A DNA stretch of 64,000 nucleotides, from contig NZ_KQ948423.1 of the NCBI RefSeq assembly GCF_001514065.1, forward strand, positions 953,717 through 1,017,716. Direction: 5' to 3'. Below the pieces are notes generated by a model. That model was not told the origin of the DNA and searched no databases. It was given only the letters and a program-made list of their open reading frames with translations. This document shows positions 12,921 to 17,423 of this stretch, piece by piece. The first letter of the stretch is position 1; each line of letters begins with the position of its first letter. The position numbers and the translations under genes were made by a program. The stretch comes from Streptomyces antibioticus (GTDB taxonomy: Bacteria; Actinomycetota; Actinomycetes; Streptomycetales; Streptomycetaceae).

Positions 12921-13241
12921 CTAGTGGCCGCTGGTCGCCTTCAGGCCGACCACGGCGACCAGCAGCAGACAGACGAAGAAGATCCGGGCGGCGGTGGCCG
13001 GCTCCCCCAGCACCACCATGCCGAGCACCGCCGCCCCGGCCGCACCGATCCCGACCCACACCCCATAGGCGGTGCCGATGGGAAGGGAACGGGTGGCGTA
13101 CGACAGCAGCAGCATGCTCGCGACGATCCCGGCGCCGGTGAACACGGACGGCACGAGCCGGGTGAAACCGTCGGTGTACTTCATCCCGATCGACCAGCCG
13201 ACCTCGAGCAGACCGGCGACGACGAGCAGAACCCAGGCCAT
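12921..13241 (-). CDS. sugE: SugE/Gdx-type small multidrug resistance protein
   Basis: A 106-residue, four-helix membrane protein. 'MAWVLLVVAGLLEVGWSIGMKYTDGF' with Glu13 in helix 1 and 'GTAYGVWVGIGAAGAAVLG' are the SMR family core; the 'W-S-I-G-M-K' pattern is the SugE/Gdx branch, which exports guanidinium, rather than the EmrE branch. The start is ATG 13241, 8 bp after GGAGG. No ykkC-type guanidine riboswitch was recognised in the upstream 100 bp. It is convergent with the PBP gene. Confidence 0.9.
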   Translation of the reverse strand: MAWVLLVVAGLLEVGWSIGMKYTDGFTRLVPSVFTGAGIVASMLLLSYATRSLPIGTAYGVWVGIGAAGAAVLGMVVLGEPATAARIFFVCLLLVAVVGLKATSGH

Positions 13242-13354
13242 GACAGGCACCTCCGAGACACGGACTTCTTGTGCGGGGTGCGTCGTCTTGTCGTACGACC
13301 CGGTACGGCGCGTCTCGTCGGGTTGACTCTTCAAAGCTAGCAAAGGGACAGCAA

Positions 13355-14243: not shown

Positions 14244-14717
14244 ATGAGCGAGCGACTCCAGCCCGGGGACGTAGCCCCCGCCTTCACCCTCCCCGACGCC
14301 GACGGCACCGACGTGTCCCTTGCGGACCACAAGGGCCGCAAGGTCATCGTCTACTTCTACCCGGCGGCCCTCACCCCCGGCTGCACGAAGCAGGCCTGCG
14401 ACTTCACCGACAACCTGGAACTTCTGGCCGGCGCCGGCTACGACGTCATCGGCATCAGCCCGGACGCCCCCGAGAAGCTGGCGAAGTTCAGGGACAAGGA
14501 GAACCTGAGGATCACGCTGCTGGCCGACCCGGAGAAGACGGTCACCGAGGAGTACGGGGCGTACGGCGAGAAGAAGAACTACGGCAAGACCTACATGGGC
14601 GTCATCCGCTCCACGATCGTGGTGGACGAGGAGGGCAAGGTCGAACGGGCGCTGTACAACGTCCGGGCGACGGGCCACGTAGCGAAGATCATCAAGGACC
14701 TGGGCATCGAAAGCTGA
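14244..14717 (+). CDS. bcp: Thiol peroxidase of the Bcp/PrxQ family
   Basis: A 157-residue peroxiredoxin with peroxidatic Cys47 in 'TPGCTKQAC' and a resolving Cys52 five residues on, the atypical 2-Cys arrangement of Bcp. It reduces hydroperoxides using thioredoxin in the cytosol. ATG 14244 starts the conserved 'GDVAPAFTLPDADG' N-terminus. Its last 26 bp overlap the end of the convergent GNAT gene. Confidence 0.93.
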   Translation: MSERLQPGDVAPAFTLPDADGTDVSLADHKGRKVIVYFYPAALTPGCTKQACDFTDNLELLAGAGYDVIGISPDAPEKLAKFRDKENLRITLLADPEKTVTEEYGAYGEKKNYGKTYMGVIRSTIVVDEEGKVERALYNVRATGHVAKIIKDLGIES

Positions 14718-15204
14718 CCCAGACATCGGGAGCCAGGCCGGGCTTACCCGGCACCGGCCTGCGCTCCTCCTCCCACGCACCGGGGTCGACGGTCTCCCCG
14801 ACCCGCCGCCAGAACCGCACGGCCCGGGGATTGTCGTCCTGAAAGGCAACGGTCCAGGCCCCCGGATGCCGCGCCACCACCTCCCGAACGGCCCGCATCC
14901 CGACCCCTGCGCGCCGGGCCCCGCGCACGACGAAGAAGCTGTTGAGCACGCGGGTGGGCTGAGTGAGCGCCCGCACGAAGGCGAACCCGACGGGATGCGC
15001 TCCTCGGCTGAAGAGATACGCGCCCCAGTCCTTGTCCCCACTGAAGGCAGCCTCCAGCCGCTCCCTCCGGAAGGTGCCGTCGGGGTTGGGCAGTTGCCCC
15101 CGGAACTCCGACAGGTCATGCCGGAAGAGCAACCAGAGGCGCTCGATGGTGGGACGGTCGGCGGGGGTGACGGGGCGGACGGTGACATCTGGTGGCGTGG
15201 TCAT
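14692..15204 (-). CDS. GNAT family N-acetyltransferase
   Basis: A 170-residue protein with the GNAT fold: 'VRPVTPADRPTIERLWLLF' at the N-terminus and an acetyl-CoA loop region 'RGARRAGVGMRAVREVV' (Q/R-x-x-G-x-G/A), then 'FQDDNPRAVRFWRRVG'. Substrate unknown. ATG 15204 follows a GGGAGG site by 8 bp; that site is the 3' arm of a terminator-like hairpin (15209-15247). The 3' end overlaps bcp by 26 bp. Confidence 0.85.
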   Translation of the reverse strand: MTTPPDVTVRPVTPADRPTIERLWLLFRHDLSEFRGQLPNPDGTFRRERLEAAFSGDKDWGAYLFSRGAHPVGFAFVRALTQPTRVLNSFFVVRGARRAGVGMRAVREVVARHPGAWTVAFQDDNPRAVRFWRRVGETVDPGAWEEERRPVPGKPGLAPDVWVSFRCPGP

Positions 15205-15208
15205 GAAA

Positions 15209-15247
15209 AAAGCCTCCCGAGCGGACAAGGGGCCGCGGGGAGGCTTT
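15209..15247 (-). promoter_or_regulatory. Attenuator-like hairpin sequestering the GNAT ribosome binding site
   Basis: In the minus-strand transcript AAAGCCTCCC pairs with GGGAGGCTTT (10 bp), and an inner GCGG/CCGC can extend the structure. The 3' arm holds the GGGAGG Shine-Dalgarno and is followed by a T run that ends at the start codon. It could terminate transcription or hide the ribosome site. Confidence 0.6.
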
Positions 15248-15361: not shown

Positions 15362-16003
15362 GTGGGGGGCAGTGTTTACAGCAGGGAGCGGTTGGAGGCG
15401 GCGGCTCGGGGGGCTCGGACGTTGTCGGAGGCGCTGGGGCGGTTGGGGGTGGATCCACGAAGTTCGACGCGCCGGTACGTCTTCGAGCGGATGAAGAAAT
15501 TGGGGGTCGACGTCTCTCACTTCGAAAGGGAGGGTGTGAAGTGGACACGAGAGCTTCTGCAAGCGGCCGTTTCGGCATCGACGAACATGTGCGAGGTGCT
15601 GCGGCTTCTGGGGCTTGAGGTGGTCGGCGGCCACCACACGCACATCAGCCGCCGGATCAAGGCGTACGGAATCGACACCTCGCATTTCCGCGTACCGACC
15701 CAACGCGGCAAGGCATGGCGGCCTCGGACGCCGGAAGCGTTTCTCGTAGAGCAGCCGTTCGAAAGTGCTCGGCGTGTCCCGAGCGACCGGCTCAGGTGGG
15801 CGATGACGAGTACAGGCATGCCGGAGCGGTGTGCGATGTGTGGCCTGGAAGCGGTATGGCGGGGGCGTCCGCTCCCCCTGGAGGTGGATCACATCGACGG
15901 CGACTGGCGGAACAACCGCATCGAGAACCCGCGGTTCCTATGCCCCAACTGCCACTCGACGACGGATAGTTACCGGGGGCGCGGCAAGGTCCGGGCTTCG
16001 TGA
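15362..16003 (+). CDS. HNH endonuclease (first of tandem pair)
   Basis: A 213-residue protein from GTG 15362 (GGAGG 7 bp upstream). The C-terminal HNH module has paired cysteines 'CAMC' and 'CPNCH' as a zinc ribbon and the core 'LEVDHIDGDWRNNRIENPRFLC'. The N-terminal half holds two copies of a roughly 48-residue module, each running from 'Y/W-(S/T)-R-E' to 'D-(V/T)-SHF' (about residues 6-53 and 61-109), probably DNA-binding helices. It overlaps the next gene by 4 bp (GTGA). The target is unknown. Confidence 0.85.
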   Translation: MGGSVYSRERLEAAARGARTLSEALGRLGVDPRSSTRRYVFERMKKLGVDVSHFEREGVKWTRELLQAAVSASTNMCEVLRLLGLEVVGGHHTHISRRIKAYGIDTSHFRVPTQRGKAWRPRTPEAFLVEQPFESARRVPSDRLRWAMTSTGMPERCAMCGLEAVWRGRPLPLEVDHIDGDWRNNRIENPRFLCPNCHSTTDSYRGRGKVRAS

Positions 16004-16668
16004 GCGGCGGCGTGCGGTACACCAGGGAACGGCTGGCCGAAGCCGCCGAGCGATGTTCCGACATCGACGAGGTCATCGCGTTCTTCGGCACCCGGCCATA
16101 CGGTCAACTGCGTCGCCATCTCTTCCGGCGCTTCGACCACTTCGAGATCGATGTCTCGCACATGCCACGAAAGAGGCGTGCGGGGGCAATGCCTACCAGG
16201 CCGGCCGCCGACGAGCTTCGCCGAGCGGTTGAGGGAGCGACCTCCATCGCGGGCACACTCCGGGCTCTGGGAATGGAGCCCTATGACAACAGGCTGCGCA
16301 CCCAGCTCCACCGTTGGGTGGCCGAAGACGGTCTCGACACCACTCACTTTCTGGGGCAGGCGCATCAGCGTGGCGGACCGGGCACCACGCCGCCGCGGTC
16401 GGCGCAGGACATCCTGGTCCGGCATGACGGCACCCGTCGGACGAGGACCCACCTGCTCCGACGGGCACTTCTCGAGGTGGGTGTACCTGAGGAATGCGCC
16501 GAATGCGGAACGGGCTCCGAGTGGCGTGGCAAGCCAATGACGCTTGAGGTCGACCACATCAACGGGGACTGGAGCGATGACCGGCGGGAGAACCTGCGGT
16601 TGCTGTGCCCCAACTGTCACGCGATCACGGCCACGTGGTGCAGAGGGGGTCGTCGTCAGAAGGCGTAG
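16000..16668 (+). CDS. HNH endonuclease (second of tandem pair)
   Basis: A 222-residue paralogue of the preceding gene, starting at GTG 16000 within its stop codon. It has the same plan: two modules ending in 'IDVSHM' and 'LDTTHF', then the HNH core 'LEVDHINGDWSDDRRENLRLLC' with 'CAEC' and 'CPNCH'. The two proteins differ too much to be a recent duplication, so both have probably been kept for a while. A tRNA-like gene starts 22 bp after its stop on the same strand. Confidence 0.85.
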   Translation: MSGGVRYTRERLAEAAERCSDIDEVIAFFGTRPYGQLRRHLFRRFDHFEIDVSHMPRKRRAGAMPTRPAADELRRAVEGATSIAGTLRALGMEPYDNRLRTQLHRWVAEDGLDTTHFLGQAHQRGGPGTTPPRSAQDILVRHDGTRRTRTHLLRRALLEVGVPEECAECGTGSEWRGKPMTLEVDHINGDWSDDRRENLRLLCPNCHAITATWCRGGRRQKA

Positions 16669-16673
16669 CCCAG

Positions 16674-16679
16674 TAAAAT
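16674..16679 (+). promoter_or_regulatory. Possible -10 box before the UAG-anticodon tRNA
   Basis: TAAAAT stands 11 bp before the tRNA 5' end in very GC-rich surroundings. No convincing -35 element is 16-18 bp upstream, so the tRNA may have a weak promoter of its own or be read through from the HNH genes. Confidence 0.35.
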
Positions 16680-16690
16680 AGGCAGCGCTG

Positions 16691-16763
16691 GCGCCCGTAC
16701 GCCAACGGCTGAGCGGCAATCTTTAGGTGGTTGTGTCTGTCGGTTCGAATCCGACCGGGCGTA
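16691..16763 (+). tRNA. Class-I tRNA with UAG anticodon (Leu-CUA by codon)
   Basis: A complete 73-nt cloverleaf. The acceptor GCGCCCG/CGGGCGT has a G-U first pair and A73. The D stem is CGC/GCG with GG in the loop. The anticodon stem CAATC/GGTTG closes loop TTTAGGT, giving anticodon UAG at 16724-16726. The variable loop has only 5 nt (TGTCT), and the T arm is GTCGG-TTCGAAT-CCGAC. CCA is not encoded. A UAG anticodon reads the leucine codon CUA, but bacterial tRNA-Leu is class II with a long variable arm, which this lacks. Its charging identity is therefore unclear. Confidence 0.75.
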
Positions 16764-16771
16764 CAGAAAAA

Positions 16772-16814
16772 GACGAGGCCCCGCACCTTCGTATGTAAGG
16801 TGCAGGGCCTCGTC
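16772..16814. terminator. Bidirectional terminator between tRNA and rdgB
   Basis: GACGAGGCCCCGCACCTT pairs with AAGGTGCAGGGCCTCGTC (18 bp, one C-A mismatch, 7-nt loop). On the minus strand it is followed by CTTTTTC, making it the rdgB terminator; on the plus strand it closes the HNH-tRNA unit. Confidence 0.88.
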
Positions 16815-16820
16815 ACAGGC

Positions 16821-17423
16821 TCAGCCCAACAGCTCCCGCACCACCGGCACCAACCCCCGGAACGCCTTCCCCCGGTGGCTGATCGCGTTCTTCTCCTCCG
16901 GGGTGAGTTCCGCGCAGGTGCGCGTCTCGCCCTCCGGCTGGAGGATCGGGTCGTAGCCGAAGCCGTTCGTGCCGGTCGGGGTGTGGCGGAGTACGCCGGT
17001 CAGGCGGCCCTCCACCACGCGTTCCGTGCCGTCCGGGAGCGCCAGGGCCGCCGCGCAGGCGAAGTGGGCGCCGCGGTGTTCGTCGGCGATGTCGGAGAGC
17101 TGGGCCAGGAGCAGTTCGAGGTTCGCCTTGTCGTCGCCGTGCTTGCCCGCCCAGCGGGCCGAGAAGATGCCGGGGGCGCCGTTCAGGACGTCGACGCAGA
17201 GGCCGGAGTCGTCGGCGACGGCGGGCAGGCCGGTGGCCTGGGCCAGGGCGTGGGCCTTCAGGAGCGCGTTCTCGGCGAACGTCACCCCTGTTTCCTTGAC
17301 GTCCGGTACCTCCGGGTACGCCTCCGCGCCGACCAGGTCATGGCGCAGACCTGCGTCGGCGAGGATGGCGCGGAGTTCGGTGATTTTGCCGGCGTTGCGG
17401 GTGGCGAGGATCAGACGGGTCAT
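16821..17423 (-). CDS. rdgB: RdgB/HAM1 non-canonical purine NTP pyrophosphatase
   Basis: A 200-residue enzyme beginning 'RLILATRNAGKITELRAIL', with 'DDSGLCVDVLNGAPGIFSARWAG' and 'GTNGFGYDPI', the signature of the ITPase family. It hydrolyses XTP, dITP and related nucleotides to monophosphates and cleans the nucleotide pool. It lies downstream of rph with a lipoprotein gene between them, the usual Streptomyces order. Confidence 0.95.
   Translation of the reverse strand: MTRLILATRNAGKITELRAILADAGLRHDLVGAEAYPEVPDVKETGVTFAENALLKAHALAQATGLPAVADDSGLCVDVLNGAPGIFSARWAGKHGDDKANLELLLAQLSDIADEHRGAHFACAAALALPDGTERVVEGRLTGVLRHTPTGTNGFGYDPILQPEGETRTCAELTPEEKNAISHRGKAFRGLVPVVRELLG

Follow-up and report, generated by a model that had tools for sequence, protein, structure and literature searches.

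The stretch of DNA analysed here, referred to as the window, comprises 64,000 nucleotides (nt) of the Streptomyces antibioticus genome, a 10.1 Mb assembly of 29 contigs. It contains two genes for HNH endonucleases, HNH1 and HNH2, which are followed by a transfer RNA (tRNA) gene with the anticodon UAG and by a terminator-like hairpin (Table 1). Comparison of this locus across the genus indicates that the tRNA gene has been replaced repeatedly, and the HNH genes probably take part in the replacement. The sequence-only reading of this DNA had described two overlapping HNH genes with a tRNA 22 nt behind them, and this layout was confirmed by the open reading frames (ORFs) and by Pfam HNH matches: the two HNH frames share 4 nt, and the HNH2 stop lies 22 nt before the tRNA start. 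The described cloverleaf of 73 nt also stands, the 74 nt of the ARAGORN output including one extra 3′ base. ARAGORN calls an intronless tRNA-Leu(tag) and agrees on the UAG anticodon, the variable loop of 5 nt, the G-U first acceptor pair and the D stem of 3 base pairs (bp). With its 5-nt loop the molecule does not have the long variable arm of a class-II tRNA-Leu and is referred to here as class I. It was absent from the Rfam scan of the window at gathering thresholds and scored 44.9 bits in a tRNA-model search of the whole genome; a pattern of anticodon loop and T arm matched the window once and none of 100 shuffled sequences. The hairpin behind the tRNA is strong, as had been described, though without a T run: it has more than 10 bp, and tRNA and hairpin together fold with −62.4 kcal/mol (z −5.1, 200 shuffles). 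Hexamers similar to TAnAnT or TAGCAT recur about 10–20 nt 5′ of the tRNA in the loci inspected by eye, and the TAAAAT of the window is a possible −10 promoter element of the tRNA itself. The names bcp (peroxiredoxin), rdgB (RdgB/HAM1-type nucleoside triphosphate pyrophosphatase) and GNAT are those we presume from the sequences.

Table 1. Features of the HNH–tRNA locus and its borders (window coordinates).
Feature	Position	Strand	Remarks
bcp	14244..14717	+	ORF; marks the upstream border; 112/126 Streptomyces stretches have a homolog 5′ of the tRNA
GNAT-like acetyltransferase ORF	14692-15228	-	between bcp and HNH1
HNH1	15362..16003	+	213 amino acids (aa); HNH endonuclease with two N-terminal three-helix modules
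HNH2	16000..16668	+	222 aa; HNH endonuclease, paralog of HNH1; adjoins the tRNA
TAAAAT	16674..16679	+	candidate -10 element, read by eye
class-I tRNA-Leu(UAG)	16691..16763	+	called by ARAGORN; sole UAG tRNA of the genome
anticodon TAG in loop TTTAGGT	16724..16726	+	identical loop in 34/39 Streptomyces class-I alleles
terminator-like hairpin	16772..16814	.	between the tRNA and rdgB
rdgB	16821..17423	-	downstream border; present in 148/150 Streptomyces genomes

The identity of the tRNA was assessed within its own genome and across the genus. The tRNA-model search found 77 tRNAs in the genome, whose places were typed by ARAGORN. The leucine tRNAs of class II carry the anticodons CAG, GAG (two genes) and UAA, and those of class I carry UAG (the window), CAA and, in a second gene, CAG. 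A normal class-II tRNA-Leu(UAG) elsewhere in the genome, for which a search had been suggested, is not among the 77 tRNAs found with the tRNA model and ARAGORN, and neither is any other second UAG tRNA. Among 150 Streptomyces genomes, 43 match the class-I UAG pattern, 64 the class-II UAG pattern and 43 neither. The class-II figure is what is left of 71 matching genomes after seven were set aside as false; the matches set aside consist of a string like the one that ARAGORN types as tRNA-Cys in locus L357, the other six being judged by sequence alone. The two patterns never occur in the same genome (0 of 150, 18.3 expected, hypergeometric P 9e-14). Because the genome has no other UAG tRNA and the two patterns never stand together, the molecule of the window is most likely a working CUA-decoding tRNA. 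Its structure is maintained among relatives, a point that the sequence-only reading had put up for test: in 39 distinct Streptomyces class-I alleles 663 of 663 cells of the acceptor, anticodon and T stems are paired (the D stem was left out, and the script took the best-paired register), and 12 of the 17 stem pairs have changes on both sides. The discriminator A73 is present in all 39 alleles. Charging with leucine appears likely. According to PMC9976931, a large variable region is tabled among the bacterial leucine elements, yet is called not crucial in E. coli.

The two other class-I leucine tRNAs of the genome lie on separate contigs. The tRNA-Leu(CAA) (L335, C11:293218) is the sole CAA tRNA of the genome, and the second tRNA-Leu(CAG) is found at L331 (C16:2511). 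The CAA gene has a match of at least 95% in 14 of 61 Streptomyces genomes, with weaker matches or none in the rest, and other leucine tRNAs may be unstable too. Five tRNA genes lie within about 510 nt at C13:181491–181999; their model scores are lowish (57–59 bits), and the group is perhaps a small phage-like tRNA array.

The place between bcp and rdgB was compared in 126 Streptomyces loci, namely 120 intervals at the 3′ end of rdgB and six loci already in hand; 22 of the 148 genomes with rdgB lie outside this set. Every locus contains exactly one tRNA, on the strand opposite to rdgB. ARAGORN calls it Leu(tag) in 125 of them, and in the remaining one (G131) it calls Pro(agg) for a Leu-like sequence. 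The tRNA belongs to class I in 47 loci and to class II in 79, which indicates that the class-I molecule replaces the ordinary tRNA-Leu(UAG) at an orthologous place. An HNH homolog lies at most 700 nt upstream of the tRNA in 85 of the loci, that is, in 43 of the 47 class-I and 42 of the 79 class-II loci (Fisher p 4.5e-6). Different HNH states coexist: the match exceeds 450 nt in 69 loci, is only shorter in 16 and is missing in 41. The 16 short matches are fragments or divergent copies, and we infer the order of the states. Both HNH copies are free of stops over the matched stretch in 54 loci. Homologs of bcp, partly judged by eye, stand upstream of the tRNA in other families as well, and in several other actinomycetes class-I UAG tRNAs follow a bcp-like gene, recognised by eye, without any HNH gene. 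A scan of genome contigs for the class-I pattern gave at least 120 places, among which ARAGORN called tRNA(tag) in 85 and not in 35.

These comparisons bear on the proposal of the sequence-only reading that the nucleases and the tRNA act as one unit, which was to be weakened if the tRNA were found widely without HNH neighbours. The linkage itself held up: it is conserved in 85 of the 126 loci, in 30 of 30 chromosomal loci examined and in phage arrays. The obligate machine of three parts did not, since 41 of the 126 loci keep the tRNA without HNH; this fits a situation in which HNH genes come and go beside a housekeeping tRNA. The same reading had considered that the tRNA might be mischarged or might serve as a decoy or regulatory RNA, forming one machine with the nucleases. 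Its class I shape with a leucine anticodon, the tight adjacency of the genes and the listing of a large variable region among bacterial leucine elements (PMC9976931) would suit such a role. However, the tRNA stands at the ordinary tRNA-Leu(UAG) locus of a genome in which no second UAG tRNA was found, A73 is kept in every class-I allele, and the tRNA persists where the HNH genes are missing. A mischarged, decoy or regulatory tRNA is thus very improbable.

The distribution of the two tRNA classes was compared with a tree of the adjacent rdgB, a single gene of 600 nt beside the locus. The UAG tRNA class requires 38 changes on this tree, and 200 shuffles require 37.96 on average (range 31–44); in 300 further shuffles the mean was 38.2, and 156 of them were as low as 38. 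As a control, tRNA-Leu(CAG), found in 150 of 150 genomes, was divided by the analyst into two groups split at a best expectation value (E) of 1e-25. This type requires only 6 changes, against 31.3 in shuffles (minimum 26), so the rdgB tree holds signal and the UAG class does not follow it. The presence of HNH shows no signal either (33 changes against 34.8 shuffled, range 29–40). Two genomes (G130 and G172) with rdgB genes 3% apart have tRNAs that are only 60% identical. Taken together, the comparison indicates that the tRNA-Leu(UAG) gene is replaced repeatedly between Streptomyces species, with little regard to species.

The extent of the replaced DNA can be seen in close pairs. Nine pairs were chosen by the analyst from the closest rdgB pairs, eight of which have different tRNAs. 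In five of these eight (G130/G172, G160/G142, G032/G133, G013/G134 and G151/G150) an unalignable block that holds the tRNA lies between alignable sides. Between G160, which has a class-II tRNA and no HNH, and G142, which has a class-I tRNA and an HNH pair, identity is 97.7% on the bcp side and 94% in rdgB; homology ends 3 nt past the bcp match and returns 3 nt before the end of rdgB, and everything in between differs. In G032/G133 the tRNA lies 1.6–1.8 kb from rdgB, and in G151/G150 the upstream alignable side is not bcp itself. The ninth pair, G090/G139, has an identical tRNA, and the HNH pair is precisely present in one genome and absent in the other. Near relatives therefore carry occupied and empty alleles with replaced flanks, as expected of homing endonucleases.

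The presence of HNH genes goes along with altered tRNAs. Loci without HNH and with fewer than 70 nt between bcp and the tRNA were termed compact, a limit chosen after the locus table had been viewed. Among the 14 compact loci, the tRNA has at most two differences from one sequence in 11 and at most five in 13, and one stands at 22. None of the 85 HNH loci has a tRNA within two differences of this canonical sequence (0 of 69 with a match above 450 nt, 0 of 16 with a shorter one), a count that is partly circular since the analyst picked the canonical tRNA from the compact alleles. The tRNA distances of the compact and the 69 long-match HNH loci differ with a Mann-Whitney p of 2.5e-8. Free of the circularity is the comparison at equal rdgB distance, in which mean tRNA identity is 0.93–1.0 for compact loci and 0.70–0.73 for HNH loci. 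The compact loci do not form one clade on the rdgB tree (12 changes against 13.6 shuffled, range 11–14). In the class-II alleles of HNH loci the D stem, the anticodon stem and the variable arm are the most variable parts, and the anticodon loop and T arm are constant. Protection of the tRNA by loss of the long arm alone was rejected, as 42 of the 85 HNH-bearing loci have class-II tRNAs.

The identity of the HNH genes and that of the tRNA are themselves linked. With rdgB distance removed, a partial Mantel test gave r 0.29 (p 0.001) for 66 adjacent copies and r 0.16 (p 0.003) for 56 upstream copies. Among the 66 adjacent copies, 30 share a tRNA of 85% identity or more with their closest HNH relative; the closest rdgB relative gives 17 such cases and random pairing 8.8. 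The 56 upstream copies give 20, 16 and 9.6 in the same order. Real as it is, the link is loose.

Relaxed selection could also be held responsible for the variation: a tRNA for the rare CUA codon would drift and be replaced by any tRNA that arrives, and the HNH genes would be harmless passengers derived from phages. CTA is indeed rare in the two host genes counted, with none in bcp and 0.36 per 1000 codons in rdgB (126 Streptomyces loci), and class-I tRNA-Leu genes are present in many viral contigs. However, the compact alleles are near-invariant over the same rdgB distances at which HNH loci diverge. Base pairing in the tRNA stems has been kept, 12 of the 17 pairs having changed on both sides, and at E 0.001 the source genome has the HNH family at this tRNA only. 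We regard relaxed selection as quite improbable. The stop-free HNH stretches contain 2.77 CTA per 1000 codons and 15 TTA codons, of which rdgB and bcp have none; these genes may need the tRNA that accompanies them, or their composition may simply be foreign.

Both HNH proteins score above the cut-off for the Pfam family HNH PF01844 (HNH2, 7.3e-06). Their match to the phage HNH family phrog_10822 is stronger (HNH1 1.5e-53, HNH2 5.9e-45), and HNH1 also matches the PADLOC homing endonuclease model (6.8e-13). The catalytic and zinc residues are invariant across 19 aligned HNH1 sequences, and 64 of the 66 adjacent copies and 46 of the 56 upstream ones match a regular expression for the HNH motif. 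The genes are separate ORFs outside any intron or intein. The predicted structure of HNH1 contains two three-helix modules and the HNH domain (predicted local distance difference test, pLDDT, 83; predicted template modelling score, pTM, 0.41), and the N-terminal modules may bind DNA. No sequence match for HNH1 was obtained among solved structures and no Foldseek hit at E 0.001; 21 predicted viral models match. Besides HNH1 and HNH2 themselves, the source genome has no match to their families at E 0.001.

Three other origins or functions of the pair were rejected. Recent phage insertion is contradicted by a search of 50,697 phage records, which gave no DNA match at E 1e-5; protein relatives of the HNH genes were found in 221 phage records. 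For an RNA-guided IscB/HEARO system, HNH2 reached 14 bits with guided_IscB against a cut-off of 175, and the adjoining RNA is a tRNA. As to a tRNA-cutting HNH defence of the Septu type, HEase, ZorE, mREase_IV and Effector are among the PADLOC models hit at E 1, and none of the hits carries the name PtuB.

The association with tRNA genes extends beyond the genus. An HNH relative was found in 49 of 384 genomes of the class, and 30 stored chromosomal loci from the genomes with matches were examined, 19 of them from the genus of the window and 11 from the families f19, f28, f39 and f21. In all 30 the HNH relative is followed on the same strand by a tRNA-Leu(tag) of class I or II, at a distance from a slight overlap to 411 nt. 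Among the phage records, seven neighbourhoods chosen by the analyst from the 30 best rows all contain several tRNAs. The next tRNA is a tRNA-Leu in four, and in phage PPSC2 it is annotated as tRNA-Leu(tag). The best 80 of at least 568 viral loci, near-duplicates included (for example L520–L522), all have at least one tRNA, and 73 have two or more. A same-strand tRNA starts between −51 and +150 of the HNH stop in 39 of these 80, and in 21 it is a tRNA-Leu. Within the narrower range of −60 to +20 the number is 34, where random anchors placed in these loci give 9.4; 18 of the 34 are tRNA-Leu, which makes up 23% of all 623 tRNAs of the 80 loci (p 1e-4). These associations indicate that the HNH family is tied to tRNA genes.

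Three further observations concern such neighbourhoods. In 20 of the best 80 viral loci (L495, L496, L501, L502, L506 and others) the HNH frame ends 9–51 nt inside the next tRNA as called by ARAGORN, and loss of the HNH gene could damage the overlapping viral tRNA. In genome G057 of the same class, the tRNA behind an HNH relative belongs to class I and is typed by ARAGORN as Leu(taa) (L045:1–273). The tRNA-Leu(UAG) of Chryseobacterium combines a leucine-like D arm with a short variable loop (L053, L059, L072, L084, L114, L115, L132, L150 and L155), apparently through an independent loss of the long arm.

Similar to the free-standing endonucleases of phages, the HNH enzymes of this locus are proposed to be homing endonucleases. 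It is likely that their target is tRNA-Leu(UAG) and that an altered but functional tRNA travels with them, which would make the block a natural cut-and-rescue element. The first step would be the entry of an HNH-bearing allele into a cell with an empty allele, where one or both HNH enzymes would cleave the tRNA-Leu(UAG) gene found there, either inside or at its edge. Repair templated by the donor would copy the block HNH1–HNH2–tRNA–hairpin, with bcp and rdgB as homologous arms on either side. The codon CUA still has to be read, so the block would arrive with an altered tRNA of its own. This tRNA would escape cutting either as class I against class II or through a changed D arm and anticodon stem, and the cell would survive as CUA is still decoded; an imperfect tRNA may be tolerable because CTA is rare in rdgB and bcp. 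The HNH genes would later decay or vanish, and the altered tRNA would remain. Sequence comparison supports the replacement of the tRNA, the linkage of HNH to changed tRNAs, the coexistence of the HNH states and the family-wide tRNA association; from these we infer that DNA is cut and where, that the resident allele is resistant, which way the steps run and that the tRNA is charged with leucine. A more far-reaching version, which in our estimate is evenly poised, is a natural cleave-and-rescue drive in which the tandem HNH enzymes cut the one tRNA gene that serves a rare leucine codon and bring along a recoded tRNA that they cannot cut, with rewriting across classes I and II throughout the genus until the class lost its species-tree signal.

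The main competing explanation places the cut in RNA. The HNH proteins would cleave the transcripts of the canonical tRNA-Leu(UAG), the linked altered tRNA would be a resistant rescuer, and the whole would be an addiction or antiphage unit. From comparative data, cleavage of the tRNA gene cannot be told apart from cleavage of the tRNA itself. Linkage of HNH with an altered tRNA would be seen alike in both, and the tRNA-Leu(tag) behind the HNH gene in every chromosomal locus examined agrees with an RNA target as well. Nevertheless, the best-matching families are phage HNH proteins and homing endonucleases, and the predicted N-terminal modules resemble DNA-binding helices. The class-II tRNAs of half the HNH loci (42 of 85) show that escape would not simply lie in losing the long arm. 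The neighbouring ORFs of the pair are presumably bcp, the GNAT-like gene and rdgB, with no defence partner seen in the block, where the GNAT-like ORF (a name we assume) is the only other gene. Cleavage at the RNA level is accordingly considered unlikely.

Several observations weigh against the proposed cut-and-rescue element. Besides the circularity of the canonical count, all 27 HNH-free loci with a longer gap, or with bcp out of view, have altered tRNAs (0 of 27 within two differences); we take these loci to be former HNH hosts. The correlation of HNH and tRNA identity is low in both sets of copies, and HNH identity also follows rdgB distance weakly (r −0.17 and −0.20, p 0.002 and 0.003). 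HNH1 copies more than 80% identical to that of the window sit with tRNAs of both classes, which shows that recombination also parts HNH from tRNA. Some rdgB signal persists in the tRNA subtype (87 changes against shuffled means of 98.0 and 96.8; none of 100 shuffles as low as 87), and in three of the eight close pairs (G005/G080, G156/G027 and G020/G135) the tRNA region lies within an unbroken alignment. No same-strand tRNA lies downstream of HNH in 16 of the best 80 viral loci. The HNH1 of the window has a proline (ENPRF) where 18 aligned relatives have leucine or valine, and this copy might be weakened by it. Finally, a tandem pair is unusual among homing endonucleases.

Two neighbouring genes deserve mention. 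The GNAT-like ORF has a homolog in 7 of 126 Streptomyces stretches, that of the window included. Further upstream, a Guanidine-III riboswitch (Rfam RF01763, 47.7 bits) is located at positions 13277–13342 on the minus strand, 5′ of a small transporter ORF (12921–13343) which we take to be EmrE/SugE-like.

Genes for tRNAs are regarded as markers that change slowly and pass down vertically. In the present case one tRNA is swapped throughout a genus so often that its class retains no detectable signal of the tree of the neighbouring gene, and the swaps accompany a nuclease gene. If the proposal is true, a selfish element attacks a gene of translation and supplies the cure. It would also suggest a route by which class-I tRNA-Leu genes enter chromosomes, and the natural sets of cut and uncut alleles could serve for work on homing and tRNA recoding. 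What the long arm does in tRNA-Leu becomes directly testable, since among close species some have a CUA tRNA with this arm and others one that lacks it. A link between HNH genes and the swapping of tRNA-Leu(UAG) appears in no title or abstract start among the literature searched, mostly outside subscription journals.

Parts of the system resemble known ones. In synthetic cleave-and-rescue drives a nuclease destroys a needed gene and a recoded copy rescues; the present system, in contrast, is natural and bacterial, its target is a tRNA, and the cleavage is the conjectured part. The ordinary class-II tRNA-Leu(UAG) of Streptomyces shares the locus, the anticodon and often the anticodon loop with the tRNA of the window, which differs in the missing long variable arm and in its changed acceptor stem and D arm. 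The class-I tRNA-Leu genes of phages have the short variable arm and leucine anticodons, and some stand beside HNH genes of the family found here, although they are phage-borne and often lie among other tRNAs. In the intronless homing of T-even phages, as outlined in PMC2988022, a free-standing endonuclease gene spreads by cutting the allele that lacks it. The Mob enzymes MobA and MobE are likewise HNH enzymes outside introns that are inherited at high frequency in mixed infections; the targets listed for them are phage protein genes, with no rescuing tRNA copy, and the HNH domain is C-terminal here and at the opposite end in the mob genes (PMC2988022). A likeness in setting is that of SegB, described in PMC13096335 and PMC2988022 as a free-standing endonuclease of T-even phages that lies beside tRNA genes and favours the inheritance of the tRNA region. 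SegB homes in the T4 tRNA region, and its homologs are widespread beside tRNAs across phages (PMC13096335). It is a GIY-YIG enzyme of phages, whereas the enzymes described here are HNH proteins, often in tandem pairs, at one fixed tRNA-Leu(UAG) locus of the bacterial chromosome, where the tRNA itself is replaced by divergent versions.

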